64,000 bases of DNA from positions 962,501 to 1,026,500 of the forward strand of contig NZ_LT629733.1 in NCBI RefSeq assembly GCF_900104785.1, given 5' to 3'. A model generated the notes under the pieces. That model worked only from the letters and a program-made list of their open reading frames with translations. It was not told the DNA's origin and did not search any database. A program made the translations under genes and the position numbers. Source of the stretch: Formosa sp. Hel1_31_208. GTDB lineage: Bacteria > Bacteroidota > Bacteroidia > Flavobacteriales > Flavobacteriaceae. Shown piece by piece: positions 25,149 to 30,402 of this stretch. The stretch's first letter is position 1, and every line of letters starts with the position of its first letter.

Positions 25149-25156
25149 TACATTTG
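25149..25156 (+). promoter_or_regulatory. -7 box for the polyamine operon
   Basis: TACATTTG matches the consensus. It lies about 343 bases before the speA start, implying a long 5' leader. From 24946 to 25148 I see nothing coding. Confidence 0.55.
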
Positions 25157-25498
25157 CGGTGCTTTTTTAAATAAATAGTTTAAAAGCAATAGCATAGCTG
25201 AACAAATTGAAACATGTTTATACGTTCGGGTTTTTGGGCATCAGGGAGTCATATTCAAAAACAGCTTACAGAGTGAGTAACCGAATTTTAGAGCTAACTT
25301 CCGCAAACTACATCGCAATGAGCCAACATATGTATGGCTTTATTCCAACGACCCAGCCTCAGCTGAAGGTCTGAACACTTTATTTGTCAATTATTTTAAT
25401 AGCGATATTCTTATACATCGGTATTTAGATAATTAATTGTCATTGGTATAACGTCAAGTTAGCCATCACCTTTCGTTTTTAACTTTTTTGAACTTATA
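25157..25498 (+). promoter_or_regulatory. structured 5' leader of the speA operon (candidate cis-regulatory RNA)
   Basis: Several complementary segments are visible. (1) GCTTTT 25161-25166 pairs with AAAAGC 25182-25187. (2) TTCGG 25225-25229 pairs with CCGAA 25281-25285. This encloses GTTTTTG 25230-25236 with CAAAAAC 25256-25262, and TTAC 25266-25269 with GTAA 25277-25280, a three-way junction. (3) AGCCA 25321-25325 pairs with TGGCT 25335-25339. (4) GACC-CAGC 25350-25357 pairs with GCTG-GGTC 25362-25371, with an AA bulge. Two tiny ORFs lie inside: 25214-25276 (20 aa) and 25318-25374 (18 aa, MSQHMYGFIPTTQPQLKV). I do not recognise a known riboswitch class. Confidence 0.5.
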
Positions 25499-26956
25499 AT
25501 GAATACAAAATATATTGATTTGGTCAATCAGACATTTGATTTTCCACAACCAGAATTTAAACTTGAAAATAAAGCCTTAGAGTTTCACGATGTTAACCTT
25601 ATGCAATTGGTTGAGCAATATGGAGCGCCTTTAAAATTCACATATTTACCACAAATCACAAATAATATTAATCGTGCAAAAAAATGGTTTTCAGATGCTA
25701 TTGATAAATACAACTATAATGGAACTTATAGCTATTGCTATTGCACAAAAAGTTCACATTTTAAACATGTACTCGATGAGGCTTTGAAGAATGATATTCA
25801 TATAGAAACATCATCAGCATTTGATATTGATATTGTTGAACGCCTAAAAAGTGAAGGGAAAATTACAGATAATACCTTTGTAATTAGCAACGGCTTTAAA
25901 CGTGCTCAATATATTACAAATATTGCGAGATTGATTAATAACGGACATAAAAATGCGATTCCAATTATTGACAACTATGAAGAGATTGAGCTGCTTTCAG
26001 CGGAAATAAATGGAAAATTTAATGTTGGAATTCGTATCGCTTCAGAGGAAGAACCAAAATTTGAATTTTATACGTCTAGATTAGGAATTGGTTATAAGAA
26101 TATTGTCCCATTTTATAAAAATCAGATTCAAAATAATGAAAAGGTAGAACTAAAGATGCTTCACTTTTTTATCAATACGGGAATTCGTGACAACGCCTAT
26201 TACTGGAACGAATTAACAAAGTGTTTAAAAGTTTATACAAGCTTGAAAAAGGTTTGCCCATCATTGGATAGTTTAAATATTGGAGGAGGATTTCCAATTA
26301 AAAACTCATTGGCTTTTGATTTTGATTACGCTTATATGGTTGATGAGATCGTGAATCAAATTAACTTAGTTTGTAAAGAAGAAGAGGTAGAAGTTCCAAA
26401 TATTTTTACTGAATTTGGAAGCTTTACAGTTGGAGAGAGCGGAGGAGCAATCTATGAAGTATTATATCAAAAGCAACAAAACGATAGAGAAAAATGGAAT
26501 ATGATTAACTCCTCTTTCATTACGACATTGCCAGATACATGGGCAATTAACAAACGTTTTATCATGTTGCCCATTAACCGTTGGAATGATAGTTATGAGC
26601 GCGTCCTACTAGGTGGATTAACTTGTGATAGTGATGATTATTACAATAGTGAACAGCATATGAATGCCATTTATCTTCCGAAGTATAATAAAGAAAAACC
26701 TTTATATATAGGTTTCTTTAACACAGGAGCGTACCAAGAGACCATTGGTGGATTTGGAGGTTTGCAACATTGTTTAATTCCTTCACCAAAACATATTTTA
26801 ATTGATAGAGATGCTGAAGGAAATATCACTACAAAAGTATTTAGTGAACAACAAAAAAGTGAAGACTTACTCAAAATATTAGGATACAACCAAACAATTC
26901 AAAATAATACTAATGATCAAAATGAAGCATTAGAATTAGCTTTAAATACACTATAA
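25499..26956 (+). CDS. speA: arginine decarboxylase (PLP fold type III)
   Basis: Converts arginine to agmatine, the first step of the agmatine route to putrescine. 485 aa, an alanine-racemase fold enzyme, shorter than the 630-aa E. coli SpeA. The PLP lysine is K84 in YCYCTKSSH; ETSSAFDID, SLNIGGGFP (phosphate-binding glycine loop) and TEFGSFTVGESGG follow. The C-terminal part has GGLTCDSDD (active-site Cys from the partner subunit) and GFFNTGAYQE. It is 8 bases from speB, so they form an operon. The leader ahead of it suggests control at RNA level. Confidence 0.9.
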   Translation: MNTKYIDLVNQTFDFPQPEFKLENKALEFHDVNLMQLVEQYGAPLKFTYLPQITNNINRAKKWFSDAIDKYNYNGTYSYCYCTKSSHFKHVLDEALKNDIHIETSSAFDIDIVERLKSEGKITDNTFVISNGFKRAQYITNIARLINNGHKNAIPIIDNYEEIELLSAEINGKFNVGIRIASEEEPKFEFYTSRLGIGYKNIVPFYKNQIQNNEKVELKMLHFFINTGIRDNAYYWNELTKCLKVYTSLKKVCPSLDSLNIGGGFPIKNSLAFDFDYAYMVDEIVNQINLVCKEEEVEVPNIFTEFGSFTVGESGGAIYEVLYQKQQNDREKWNMINSSFITTLPDTWAINKRFIMLPINRWNDSYERVLLGGLTCDSDDYYNSEQHMNAIYLPKYNKEKPLYIGFFNTGAYQETIGGFGGLQHCLIPSPKHILIDRDAEGNITTKVFSEQQKSEDLLKILGYNQTIQNNTNDQNEALELALNTL

Positions 26957-26964
26957 TTAAATTA

Positions 26965-27909
26965 ATGAATACAAAAACTTACGCAGGAATAGAAGACCAA
27001 TATTCTAAATTAGACAGTTCAAAAATTGTACTAATTCCAGTGCCTTATGATGGCACAAGCACATGGCAAAAAGGGGCAGATAAGGGGCCTCAAGCATTTT
27101 TAGATGCTTCTGAGAATATGGAGCTTTATGATATTGAAACTAAAACAGAAGCGTATAAACAAGGCGTGTTTTTAGTTGAACCTGTAACAGAAAATACATC
27201 GCCAGAACTCATGGTAGATGCTGTTCATCAAGTCGTTAAAACATATATCAAAAAGAACAAGTTTGTAACAACTTTTGGAGGTGAACATTCCATTTCTATT
27301 GGAACAATTAGAGCCTTTAATGAATGTTTCGATAATATAACAGTCTTACAGTTAGATGCACATGCCGATCTACGAAAAACCTATCAAGGCAGTAAATGTA
27401 ATCATGCTTGTGCATTGTATGAAGCAAGTCAATCGACAAACCTTATTCAAGTGGGAATTAGAAGCATGGATGTTATTGAAACCACGGTGATGGACCAAGA
27501 AAAAACTTATTTTGCTCATGACATGGCAGCAGATGATAGTTGGGTAGATTCAGCCATAGATCAAATGACAGAAAATGTTTATATCACGATAGATTTAGAT
27601 GTTTTTGACCCCTCAATCATGCCTTCAACAGGTACGCCAGAACCAGGTGGTTTATTGTGGTATGAAACATTAGATTTTTTACGTCAGGTTTTTGAAGAAA
27701 AAAATGTTATTGGATTTGATATTGTAGAATTGTGTCCAAACTTAAACGAAAAGTCATCAGATTTTTTAGCAGCAAAATTGTATTACAAAATGCTTAGTTA
27801 TAAATTTTTAAACGAAGAAGCAGACGACGATTTCGATAATAATTTTAATGATTCAAAAGGGAAATTTAATAAGTTTTCTAAATTCAATGACGACGATGAC
27901 AACTCATAA
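26965..27909 (+). CDS. speB: agmatinase (ureohydrolase)
   Basis: Mn-dependent enzyme that splits agmatine into putrescine and urea. 314 aa. All ureohydrolase motifs are present: GGEHSISIG, QLDAHADLR and TIDLDVFDPSIMPSTGTPEPGG supply the metal-binding His and Asp residues. The C-terminal 30 residues are an acidic, Asn-rich tail (EADDDFDNN) that is unusual for the family. The 3' end overlaps the start of the next gene by about 14 to 23 bases. Confidence 0.92.
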   Translation: MNTKTYAGIEDQYSKLDSSKIVLIPVPYDGTSTWQKGADKGPQAFLDASENMELYDIETKTEAYKQGVFLVEPVTENTSPELMVDAVHQVVKTYIKKNKFVTTFGGEHSISIGTIRAFNECFDNITVLQLDAHADLRKTYQGSKCNHACALYEASQSTNLIQVGIRSMDVIETTVMDQEKTYFAHDMAADDSWVDSAIDQMTENVYITIDLDVFDPSIMPSTGTPEPGGLLWYETLDFLRQVFEEKNVIGFDIVELCPNLNEKSSDFLAAKLYYKMLSYKFLNEEADDDFDNNFNDSKGKFNKFSKFNDDDDNS

Positions 27910-28873
27910 AGGACAAATTTCACAATTTATAGAAAAGTACTACCTACACTTTAATGCAGCAGCTTTGGTGGATGCAGCAAAAGGATATGAAGACCAATTG
28001 AACTCTGGTTCAAAAATGCTAGTCTCATTGGCAGGAGCCATGAGTACAGCAGAATTAGGCAAAATATTTGCAGAAATGATTCGTCAAGATAAAGTACATA
28101 TAGTATCCTGTACTGGTGCAAACCTTGAAGAAGATATCATGAATTTGGTGGCACATTCCCACTATAAACGAGTACCTAATTATCGTGATTTGACTGCTCA
28201 AGATGAATGGGATTTATTAGAAAAAGGACTAAACCGTGTTACTGATACTTGTATACCTGAAGAAGAAGCTTTCAGAAGAATACAAGAACATATTGTAAAA
28301 ATATGGATGGATGCTGAAGCTAAAGGCGAACGTTATTTGCCACATGAATACATGTACAAATTATTACTGTCTGGTGTTTTAGAAGAACACTATGAGATAG
28401 ATTTAAAAGATTCTTGGATGTATGCCGCAGCAGAGAAAAACTTACCAATCGTTTGCCCTGGGTGGGAAGATAGTACGATGGGAAATATTTTTGCAAGCTA
28501 TGTGCTTAAGGGCCAGTTAAAAGCAAGTACTATGAAATCTGGAATTGAATATATGACGTTTTTAGCCGATTGGTACACAGATAATTGTCAAAAAGGTATT
28601 GGATTTTTTCAAATTGGCGGAGGAATAGCTGGTGATTTTCCAATTTGTGTTGTACCCATGTTATACCAAGACATGGAACGAACAGACACACCGTTTTGGA
28701 GCTATTTTTGTCAGATAAGTGATTCAACAACAAGTTATGGTTCTTATTCTGGTGCTGTGCCCAATGAAAAAATTACTTGGGGAAAATTAGATATAAACAC
28801 ACCGAAATTTATCATAGAAAGTGATGCAACAATCGTAGCACCATTAATTTTTGCTTATCTCTTGGACATGTAA
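27887..28873 (+). CDS. deoxyhypusine synthase-like protein (probable homospermidine synthase)
   Basis: 328 aa from the ATG at 27887 (27896 is also possible). A member of the deoxyhypusine synthase fold: VSLAGAMSTAELGK, CPGWEDSTMG, GGGIAGDFP and SGAVPNEKITWGKL, the last carrying the Lys that forms the enzyme-substrate imine in deoxyhypusine synthase. Bacteria lack the eIF5A substrate, and bacterial homologues make homospermidine or related polyamines from putrescine and an aminobutyl donor. The position after speA and speB supports that role, which is my inference. The start lies inside the speB tail, so translation is coupled. Confidence 0.85.
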   Translation: MTTMTTHKGQISQFIEKYYLHFNAAALVDAAKGYEDQLNSGSKMLVSLAGAMSTAELGKIFAEMIRQDKVHIVSCTGANLEEDIMNLVAHSHYKRVPNYRDLTAQDEWDLLEKGLNRVTDTCIPEEEAFRRIQEHIVKIWMDAEAKGERYLPHEYMYKLLLSGVLEEHYEIDLKDSWMYAAAEKNLPIVCPGWEDSTMGNIFASYVLKGQLKASTMKSGIEYMTFLADWYTDNCQKGIGFFQIGGGIAGDFPICVVPMLYQDMERTDTPFWSYFCQISDSTTSYGSYSGAVPNEKITWGKLDINTPKFIIESDATIVAPLIFAYLLDM

Positions 28874-30402
28874 TGGAAGATCATAAAATTGAAAATATAG
28901 AGTTAAAGTATTTAACGGTTGATGATTTTGAAGAATTAAAATCGGCAACTTTAGAGTCCTATGGAGGTGGGCTTAATTCCTATTGGAAAAAGCACCACAT
29001 AGAAGATTTAACTTCTATGTTTCCTGAAGGGCAAGTAATCATAAAAATAGATGGTGATATAGCGGGATGTGCATTATCTCTCATCGTAGATTATGATACT
29101 ATTGATGATGAACATACTTATGAGGATATTATTGGAGGGGAATCTTTTAAAAACCACCATCCTGATGGAGATGTGCTTTATGGAATTGATGTATTCATAA
29201 AACCGCAATACAGAGGCTTACGCTTAGGTAGACGACTATATGATTACCGAAAAGAAGTTTGTGAAAACCTAAACCTAAAAGGAATTGTATTTGGAGGAAG
29301 AATGCCAAATTATCATAAACACAAGCAGTTTACTCCTAAAGAATATATTGAAAAGGTGAAACGCAAGGAAATTCATGACCCCGTTTTAAATTTTCAAATT
29401 TCAAATGATTTTCATCCGGTTCGGGTTTTAAAAGGTTACTTAGAAGGCGATACTGATTCAAATGAATATGCAGTATTGATGGAATGGGATAATATCTATT
29501 ATACTAAGAAAAGCCGCAAAGCGAGTAGTGTGAAAACAGTCGTTAGGCTAGGTCTAATACAATGGCAAATGCGTACATATAATAGTTTGGACGAATTGAT
29601 GCAGCAGGTAGAGTATTTTGTAGATAGTGTAGCAGCTTATAGATCTGACTTTGCCTTATTTCCAGAGTTTTTTAATGCACCATTAATGGCGAAGTATAAC
29701 CATATGCATGAACCAGATGCCATTAGAGAATTAGCAAAATATACCAAGATTATTGTTGAAAAAATGCAGCAATTATCAATTTCATATAACATCAATATTA
29801 TTACTGGTAGTATGCCAGAGCTTATCGATGATAAATTATTTAATGTGGGGTATTTATGTCGCAGAGATGGGAGTTCAGAGCGTTACGAAAAAATACATGT
29901 AACACCAGATGAGGCTAAAGTATGGGGAATGCAGCGTGGACATAAATTGAAGACTTTTGAAACCGATGCTGGGAAAATTGGAATATTGATTTGTTATGAT
30001 TCTGAGTTTCCAGAATTATCAAGATTGTTATCAGATGAAGGAATGGATATCTTATTTGTCCCCTTTTTAACCGACACCCAAAATGGATATTCAAGAGTGC
30101 GCTTGTGCGCGCAAGCACGAGCTATTGAAAATGAATGCTATGTTGCAATTGCAGGAAGTGTAGGTAATTTACCAAATGTAAACAATATGGATATCCAGTA
30201 TGCTCAGTCTGCTGTATTTACGCCTTGTGATTTTTCATTTCCAAGTAATGGTATAAAAGCTGAGGCTACAACAAATACAGAAATGATTTTGGTTGCAGAT
30301 GTTGATTTGAGTTTGTTAAGAGAATTACATTCTTTTGGTGCAGTTAAAAATTTAAAAGACAGAAGAAAAGATATGTATGACGTTATACGTGTAGAAAAAT
30401 AA
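28873..30402 (+). CDS. GNAT acetyltransferase / carbon-nitrogen hydrolase fusion
   Basis: 509 aa, two enzymes in one chain. Residues 1-210 are a GNAT domain (GIDVFIKPQYRGLRLGRRLYDYR is the acetyl-CoA loop). Residues 222-509 are a nitrilase-family amidase with Glu in LFPEFFNAP, Lys in YEKIHVTPDE and Cys in ILICYDSEFPE, all three triad residues. The fusion is known in many Bacteroidota, but its reaction is not established. Placed last in the polyamine operon, with its ATG sharing one base with the preceding stop, it could acetylate and deacylate polyamines or agmatine derivatives; this is inference. Confidence 0.87.
   Translation: MEDHKIENIELKYLTVDDFEELKSATLESYGGGLNSYWKKHHIEDLTSMFPEGQVIIKIDGDIAGCALSLIVDYDTIDDEHTYEDIIGGESFKNHHPDGDVLYGIDVFIKPQYRGLRLGRRLYDYRKEVCENLNLKGIVFGGRMPNYHKHKQFTPKEYIEKVKRKEIHDPVLNFQISNDFHPVRVLKGYLEGDTDSNEYAVLMEWDNIYYTKKSRKASSVKTVVRLGLIQWQMRTYNSLDELMQQVEYFVDSVAAYRSDFALFPEFFNAPLMAKYNHMHEPDAIRELAKYTKIIVEKMQQLSISYNINIITGSMPELIDDKLFNVGYLCRRDGSSERYEKIHVTPDEAKVWGMQRGHKLKTFETDAGKIGILICYDSEFPELSRLLSDEGMDILFVPFLTDTQNGYSRVRLCAQARAIENECYVAIAGSVGNLPNVNNMDIQYAQSAVFTPCDFSFPSNGIKAEATTNTEMILVADVDLSLLRELHSFGAVKNLKDRRKDMYDVIRVEK

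Follow-up and report, generated by a model that had tools for sequence, protein, structure and literature searches.

The leader of speA in Formosa sp. Hel1_31_208 carries a structured RNA and a short open reading frame that largely share the same bases. In the window (the whole stretch of 64,000 nucleotides that was analysed), positions 25194-25302 are a conserved pseudoknotted RNA around a three-way junction. Sequence comparison further indicates that an upstream open reading frame (uORF) of about 55 codons, ending [Q/P]-[I/L/F]-[R/Q]-[I/V]-UGA, is conserved before speA in Flavobacteriaceae. Over its first 32 codons and the bases just upstream, selection on the RNA appears to outweigh selection on the peptide where the RNA is present (55/80 speA loci sampled). 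We consider it probable, at roughly 0.6, that this leader regulates speA by a termination-arrest peptide, with the pseudoknot of the structured RNA in its first half gating leader translation; the arrest and its signal are what we infer from these features.

To our knowledge, the control of polyamine synthesis in Bacteroidota is poorly understood. The leader would represent one conserved device in about half of the Flavobacteriaceae genomes searched, with a similar leader ORF in most Flavobacterium-titled loci, and it is a concrete candidate for a termination-arrest peptide in Bacteroidota.

The promoter and the genes downstream of the leader are:

25149-25156, plus strand: -7 promoter box TACATTTG, read from the sequence
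about 25161, plus strand: expected transcription start, about 4-5 nt past the -7 box TACATTTG, with the spacing of 4-5 nt reported for F. johnsoniae promoters (PMC6847099)
25499-26956, plus strand: speA-type PLP-dependent decarboxylase of 485 aa, arginine decarboxylase by similarity
26965-27909, plus strand: agmatinase, TIGR01230 above cut-off
27848-28873, plus strand: deoxyhypusine-synthase family protein, PF01916, below the NCBIfam cut-offs

An earlier note on this DNA had read a -7 box at 25149 and predicted a transcript of about 340 nt before speA. Both readings agree with the positions above, since the box TACATTTG lies at 25149-25156 and the speA ATG at 25499. The speA product of the window scores below the curated NCBIfam speA cut-off. 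The deoxyhypusine-synthase family protein is possibly of the homospermidine-synthase type. As called, its ORF overlaps that of the agmatinase by about 60 nt (27848-27909), and its true start is probably later, around MTTHKG. Directly 3′ of the polyamine genes, 28873-30402 encodes fused GNAT-type and carbon-nitrogen hydrolase domains.

A conserved pseudoknotted RNA before speA

The elements of the RNA, with the fraction of paired cells and the pairs showing double changes among the aligned copies, are:

25183-25306, plus strand: full covariance-model match, 128.8 bits, the window copy being among the 28 copies from which the model was built
25194-25199 / 25292-25297, plus strand: P1, 93.4% of cells paired, double changes at 4/6 pairs
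25225-25229 / 25281-25285, plus strand: P2, 99.0% paired, double changes at 5/5 pairs
25232-25238 / 25254-25260, plus strand: P3, 95.9% paired, double changes at 7/7 pairs
25264-25269 / 25273-25278, plus strand: P4 hairpin, 89.8% paired, double changes at 6/6 pairs
25244-25248 / 25298-25302, plus strand: pseudoknot between the loop strand GGGAG and the 3′ strand CTTCC, 99.4% paired, double changes at 3/5 pairs
25161-25187, plus strand: 5′ hairpin with a folding energy of -2.8 kcal/mol, not common to all lineages

When the leader was compared by BLAST with the genomes of 97 relatives, 33 were hit, in part through short and spurious matches. The 30 places that were fetched share a core at window 25195-25303, which is 72-91% identical in the relatives. 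Counting the window's own, 28 of the 30 precede speA, while one is cut by a contig end and one stands before another gene. The covariance model R1 was built from 28 of these first 30 loci (L035 is cut off and L037 was omitted). A structure-free alignment of the 28 copies supports four helices and the pseudoknot, with double-sided changes at 9/29 pairs, a number reached in 0/500 shuffles.

At E<=0.01, R1 matched 187/397 Flavobacteriaceae genomes (176/330 of the high-quality ones) and 129/237 genera. From the 98 regions listed, 78 were fetched, the omitted ones being the first 20, closest to the model. Alignment A2 comprises 99 of the 138 loci L009-L146, of which 98 are distinct (L022 is the same as L059). 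In these 99 copies, double changes occur at 22/24 modelled pairs and 94.4% of cells are paired versus 85.3% in shuffles; the alignment is biased towards the modelled helices, a bias from which the pseudoknot is free, as it lies outside the search model and yet covaries. For the whole structure including the pseudoknot, double changes are found at 25/29 pairs, with 0/500 shuffles as high and slid-partner controls far lower. Every helix covaries across relatives. The earlier note had proposed a new cis-regulatory RNA and had staked the proposal on compensatory changes in the stems, to be sought with a covariance model from speA upstream regions; such changes are abundant, both in the modelled helices and in the pseudoknot outside the model.

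The RNA is closely associated with speA. This gene follows 94/99 aligned copies and 34/40 of the further places with the RNA, where L151 repeats one of the 99 and L161 and L162 are probably chance hits. The earlier note could not match it to a known riboswitch class. Rfam 15 gave no match to the leader at the gathering score, and a search at E<=10 returned four matches only, far below gathering (best E 2). Flavo-1 (RF01705), described as an RNA motif of Bacteroidetes (PMC2864571), matched the leader at neither of these thresholds. A new conserved cis-acting RNA before speA is thus strongly supported by the covariation, the missing Rfam match and the position before speA in 94/99 copies, although it is not a plain untranslated leader (see the next section). 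By title or beginning of the abstract, none of the papers returned by our searches describes the element. The speA leader of Flavobacterium psychrophilum may be among the 64 structured 5′ regions published for that species (PMC9723704).

Outside the family, the searches used stricter filters, by which weak matches were lost. In a sample of the order, R1 matched 10/296 genomes, all Flavobacteriaceae and including the window's genome. Model R2, which was built from 96 aligned matches with the diverged ones included, matched 4/296 genomes in a sample of the phylum, again all Flavobacteriaceae with the window's genome among them.

The three-way junction had been placed at 25225-25285, and these limits are exact: P2, P3 and P4 form it, and it is conserved with compensatory changes. 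The outer helix P1, whose first pair is A-A in the window, and the pseudoknot have to be added. The other stems of the earlier note fared less well. The 5′ stem at 25161-25187 is predicted to fold, but by eye the promoter box of several relatives is too near P1 to leave room for it. The stem at 25321-25339 is unsupported as conserved RNA: 199/275 cells (72%) are paired over 55 relatives, versus 33-56% in slid controls, and its commonest pairs show one-sided changes only; in five near relatives, 24/25 cells are paired. Equally unsupported is the stem at 25350-25371, with 51% of cells paired and 30-40% in slid controls. Both fall in codons of the leader ORF, which the earlier note had missed. 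Lastly, the description of the leader as highly structured is not borne out by energy alone (z -0.43 for the whole leader, 32/100 shuffles being at least as stable). The minimum-energy fold of the whole leader was discarded as a structure guide: it is no stabler than shuffles and is misleading on P1 and the pseudoknot.

The strict promoter box TANNTTTG occurs no more than 90 nt before P1 in 15/99 RNA-bearing copies, where 10.6 are expected; the window's own leader has it, unlike most RNA-bearing copies. By eye, a looser TTTCATTTG-like box lies 8-10 nt before P1 in most of them and is a candidate promoter.

The leader open reading frame and its stop codon

The coding features of the leader and the region that follows are:

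25207-25374, plus strand: leader ORF (uORF) of 55 codons with TTG start and TGA stop, open in 99/99 aligned copies
25336-25374, plus strand: C-terminal 12 codons GFIPTTQPQLKV and the UGA stop, conserved, the proposed arrest region
25375-25498, plus strand: region from the leader stop to the speA start, with predicted hairpins at 25389-25434, 25444-25465 and 25472-25477/25498-25503

Most of the RNA falls within codons 1-32 of the leader ORF. The start codon is located in the linker between P1 and P2, and the frame is that of a conserved TTCGGG. Among the 99 copies, the ORF starts with TTG in 62, ATG in 30, GTG in 6 and CTG in 1. It has 55 codons in 50/99 copies and 55-57 codons in 75/99. The +1 and +2 frames hit stops in 99/99 and 96/99 copies, respectively. 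The distance from P1 to the start codon is variable (9-16 nt), and that from the start codon to the end of the pseudoknot is frame-preserving; three counts of 95 nt for the latter are ATG starts whose A stands one alignment column earlier. A further 42 rows come from alignment A4; most are more diverged, and one is a repeat of the L131 copy. In 41 of the 42 the frame stays open through the RNA, 28 stop at UGA and 37 have I/V as final residue; the only broken frame is that of L157, which lies before another gene. A 20-codon ATG frame at 25214 was also considered as the leader ORF and was rejected, as stops break it in nearly all of the 30 loci.

The stop codon and the last residue are strongly biased. 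UGA ends 86/99 leaders (85/98 distinct ones) versus 15/335 neighbourhood ORFs and 5/45 window ORFs, and isoleucine or valine is the last residue in 89/99 leaders (88/98 distinct) versus 24/335 and 5/45. The first background takes its ORFs, each no shorter than 250 codons, from 80 speA neighbourhoods and includes many orthologues; the second takes window ORFs of at least 200 codons, which are different genes. The consensus among the leaders is [Q/P]-[I/L/F]-[R/Q]-[I/V]-stop, with arginine second-last in 33/99 peptides. The C-terminus differs by lineage (FIPTTxxQIQI, WLNPIRI, LLPIIV, YANIRV), unlike a single strict arrest motif. Conserved C-terminal residues directly at a preferred stop codon, one of the marks of termination-arrest peptides, are found in these leaders.

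Substitution patterns were compared in 87/99 ORFs (50-58 aa). After the RNA, pN/pS is 0.38 in 526 close pairs (proteins at least 60% identical) and 0.66 in all 3741 pairs; inside the RNA it is 0.73 and 0.86. The choice of close pairs by protein identity favours low values, the contrast over all pairs is weaker and pS in the first half is perhaps lowered by constraint on the RNA, so that the ratios are a rough guide. From this contrast we conclude that selection maintains the first half of the leader chiefly for its RNA, and the second half to a greater extent for its peptide. With selection on its second half, its stop codon and its last residues, the ORF makes the RNA more than a plain untranslated leader.

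In the fold of 25375-25510, the speA AUG is predicted to be paired with a probability of 0.82-0.85, its partner strand being 25472-25477 and not the bases next to the leader stop. In 87 of the 94 speA-preceding copies, speA begins 45-130 nt after the leader stop. Post-stop bases are complementary to bases at the speA start in many relatives, and in L098 and L094 they can pair with the speA AUG itself. In the 87 of the 99 loci with speA present and such a gap, the mean pairing energy is -7.0 kcal/mol versus -5.3 kcal/mol in mismatched loci, with 0/5000 permutations as strong; this and the other tests treat related loci as independent, and one locus, present as both L022 and L059, is counted twice. 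Against its own dinucleotide shuffles, the pairing is better at p<=0.05 in 27/87 loci (L022 and L059 within these being one locus) and not significant in 60/87. RNA-less loci reach this level in 2/12 cases, and the window's own pairing is at chance (rank 0.54). Sequestration of the speA start, relieved by a halted ribosome, is therefore a fair model for some members of the family, but for the window it is no more than a guess. A consensus scan of the window detected no intrinsic terminator.

Leaders without the RNA and copies before other genes

The 80 best SpeA-similar loci were fetched by protein similarity alone. At E<=0.01, R2 finds the RNA before speA in 55 of them. Where upstream sequence sufficed (77 loci), 54 carry an ORF of at least 25 codons that ends I/V-UGA 35-200 nt before speA; the same type of ORF occurs at 5/257 other gene starts and 95/2400 random positions. 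Among the 26 speA loci lacking a clear RNA match (25 and one marginal hit), 12 have a leader ORF ending ANIRV-UGA, nine of them titled Flavobacterium and three others. These 12 were picked by that ending, which makes the figure a count and not a test; the selection itself required TGA, but an unrestricted listing also shows TGA in the 11 with enough upstream sequence. Nine of the ten Flavobacterium-titled loci have a leader ORF, sometimes annotated as a hypothetical protein, and no RNA. The tenth (L233, a metagenome bin) has the RNA.

Since the Flavobacterium-type loci have the ORF and lack the RNA, the leader ORF is the more widely kept part. Either the RNA was gained in many lineages or it was lost in the Flavobacterium type. 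In 11/11 RNA-less leaders tested, an in-frame ATG follows the end of the -7 box by 4-5 nt, and with the spacing reported for F. johnsoniae promoters (PMC6847099) these leaders would begin at or next to the end of the mRNA. In L255 and L260, an in-frame TTG is found further upstream of the leader ATG. Leader ORFs with and without the RNA offer a natural comparison for what the RNA adds.

Other loci depart from both types. Neither RNA nor leader ORF was recognised in Leeuwenhoekiella (L228), Mesonia (L229) and the Gramella/Christiangramia/Salegentibacter loci (L244, L247-L249). In L244, L247, L248 and L249, a conserved stretch TTCTTAACATTAATTTACCA, unlike the element, precedes speA and perhaps represents a different control. 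L238 and L242 have an ORF ending FIPTTEKQIIV with a TAG stop, and a weak RNA match. In L239 (titled Aequorivita) and L240 the leader ORF is short, at about 29 codons, and has LPIHI-UGA or LPIRM-UAA at its end, with no RNA found; this is perhaps a minimal form of the leader. By eye, none of 12 speA loci from other families of the order has a leader ORF with such an ending. In L287 and L288, an ORF ending FTY-UGA 110-122 nt before speA was rejected because the frame that it closes is open over about 300 codons. Contigs titled Campylobacterales (L231) and Bifidobacterium breve (L255) have flavobacterial speA loci with the leader and are probably mislabelled or contaminated bins.

Five of the 99 copies have no speA downstream (L031, L071, L129, L131, L136), and L153, L154, L156 and L157 are further cases. 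A small acidic protein of about 92-103 aa with the pattern VDxxKL...LVEKxPxGYD follows L129, L031, L071 and L154, and these copies possibly form a second regulon of the same device. In L154, by eye, a RimK-like/ATP-grasp protein follows. A small acidic protein that is probably secreted lies after L131 (also fetched as L152), the minus-strand copy of L236, L153, L156 and L157, and a glyoxalase-like protein after L136. A Pfam search with three of the small acidic neighbour proteins, that of L129 included, found no family. Genome G239 (L131/L152/L160) has one copy before speA and one before an acidic protein of about 100 aa (ATYDGYEDGTYYFTD...), probably secreted; the same holds for L236. In both, the two copies are divergent and share one intergenic region; in L236 (Kordia) they lie at 2386-2509 on the minus strand and 2725-2848 on the plus strand. 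In L157, the second copy of genome G168, the RNA fold is kept and the leader frame is broken by stops, which makes this a naturally occurring example of the RNA persisting alone, its peptide lost.

Possible mechanisms and known systems

In the termination-arrest reading, the C-terminal residues of the leader peptide would slow RF2-dependent release at the UGA from within the exit tunnel, as for TnaC. The signal may be a metabolite of the arginine/polyamine pathway, judging from an operon that encodes SpeA, an agmatinase and a deoxyhypusine-synthase family protein. A ribosome halted at the UGA would cover the post-stop bases and thereby open the speA start in those lineages where the two pair, comparable to orf34 and speF. 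Bacteroidota initiate translation without Shine-Dalgarno sequences. The pseudoknot around the often weak start codon of the leader could gate or meter initiation, either alone or by binding a ligand; such gating would fit the frequent TTG starts of RNA-bearing leaders and the ATG starts of RNA-less ones. Some findings speak against this explanation: C-termini are not the same from lineage to lineage, most of the loci tested (60/87) show no significant pairing between post-stop bases and the speA start, and some copies before other genes no longer have the usual ORF end or an intact frame (L031, L071, L154, L157).

A more elaborate, two-input regulator is a rather unlikely reading, which we propose tentatively. 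A pseudoknotted aptamer for one arginine/polyamine metabolite would decide whether the leader is started, and the nascent peptide would sense a second metabolite and arrest at the UGA. If so, one set of bases would be under selection twice, for the aptamer and for the beginning of an arrest peptide. The peptide would be the more widely kept input, and whole lineages would have acquired or lost the RNA.

The RNA could also be a metabolite riboswitch that exerts direct control over speA when arginine, agmatine, putrescine or homospermidine binds to its pseudoknotted junction; the uORF would then be secondary or a relay of the RNA state. Known aptamers are similar to this RNA in size and complexity. 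The pseudoknot, helices that change the encoded amino acids freely and the retention of the RNA before another gene in L157, despite the stop-broken frame, would all suit a riboswitch. We nevertheless hold it to be unlikely, as the second half of the ORF, its UGA and its terminal residue are selected beyond the RNA, Flavobacterium-type loci have the leader ORF with no RNA found and ribosomes translating the uORF would disrupt the aptamer fold.

Classical attenuation, in which the speed of the ribosome on leader arginine codons chooses between RNA folds as in the trp and his leaders, is quite improbable. Leader ORFs are richer in arginine than the SpeA of the window (6.9% versus 2.5%), and in the predicted fold of the window the strand at about 25292-25302 can pair either in P1 and the pseudoknot or with the downstream AAGUUAGC. 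A run of arginine codons is, however, missing: the window's leader has three, scattered and none adjacent, and an RR pair occurs in 8/99 leaders. Arginine is second-last in just a third of the peptides (33/99), the window scan found no intrinsic terminator and the preference for UGA would be left unexplained. Most improbable is a small protein acting in trans, with the RNA as its own translation control: the ORF is open, conserved and in Flavobacterium sometimes annotated as a hypothetical protein, but its N-terminal half is weakly selected as protein, and selection is concentrated at the C-terminus and the stop codon beside speA, which points to a role in cis.

Several known systems come close to the termination-arrest leader that we favour. 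The ilvB-II motif of Corynebacterium came from a search for structured RNAs and proved to carry a uORF regulator (PMC10272879). Attenuation through enriched amino-acid codons is proposed there, whereas the speA leader also has a strongly covarying RNA that includes a pseudoknot. In M. tuberculosis, B12 riboswitches and the Mbox are described as structured RNAs that act together with a small uORF (PMC11260477, PMC12810186). Their ligands are known; in the speA leader, the RNA extends over 32 codons at the beginning of the uORF itself, and a ligand is hypothetical. A covarying pseudoknot within an open reading frame also serves as a warning, as searches for RNA motifs and for small ORFs could each see half of such an element.

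In Salmonella, translation of orf34 is reported to help open up the fold in which the speF start is sequestered and to interfere with Rho termination (PMC6386406). SpeFL is described as an ornithine-sensing termination-arrest peptide that blocks RF1 (PMC8429421). The speA leader resembles this gamma-proteobacterial system in having a short uORF in the long leader of a gene for a polyamine-forming decarboxylase. It differs in the enzyme (SpeA), the phylum, the start without a Shine-Dalgarno sequence and the length of about 55 codons, compared with 34 in SpeFL. Furthermore, a pseudoknot lies over the ORF, a feature that the sources cited here do not describe for SpeFL, and the stop is mostly UGA, in the window as well, and thus read by RF2 and not RF1, which places the leader outside the SpeFL family proper.

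In TnaC, the leader peptide of the tryptophanase operon, a small molecule causes the C-terminal residues to block RF2 at a UGA (PMC8429421), and the speA leader likewise has its UGA right after conserved C-terminal residues. TnaC has 24 codons, responds to tryptophan, has conserved Trp12 and Asp16 and ends in Pro24, as reported in the same source, whereas the speA leaders mostly end in Ile or Val; proline is the last residue in 0/99 of them, so they do not belong to the TnaC family proper. Taken together, these comparisons suggest that the speA leader, while standing outside the Rfam families, TnaC and SpeFL proper, would work like a leader peptide of the SpeFL/TnaC type to which a structured RNA has been added.
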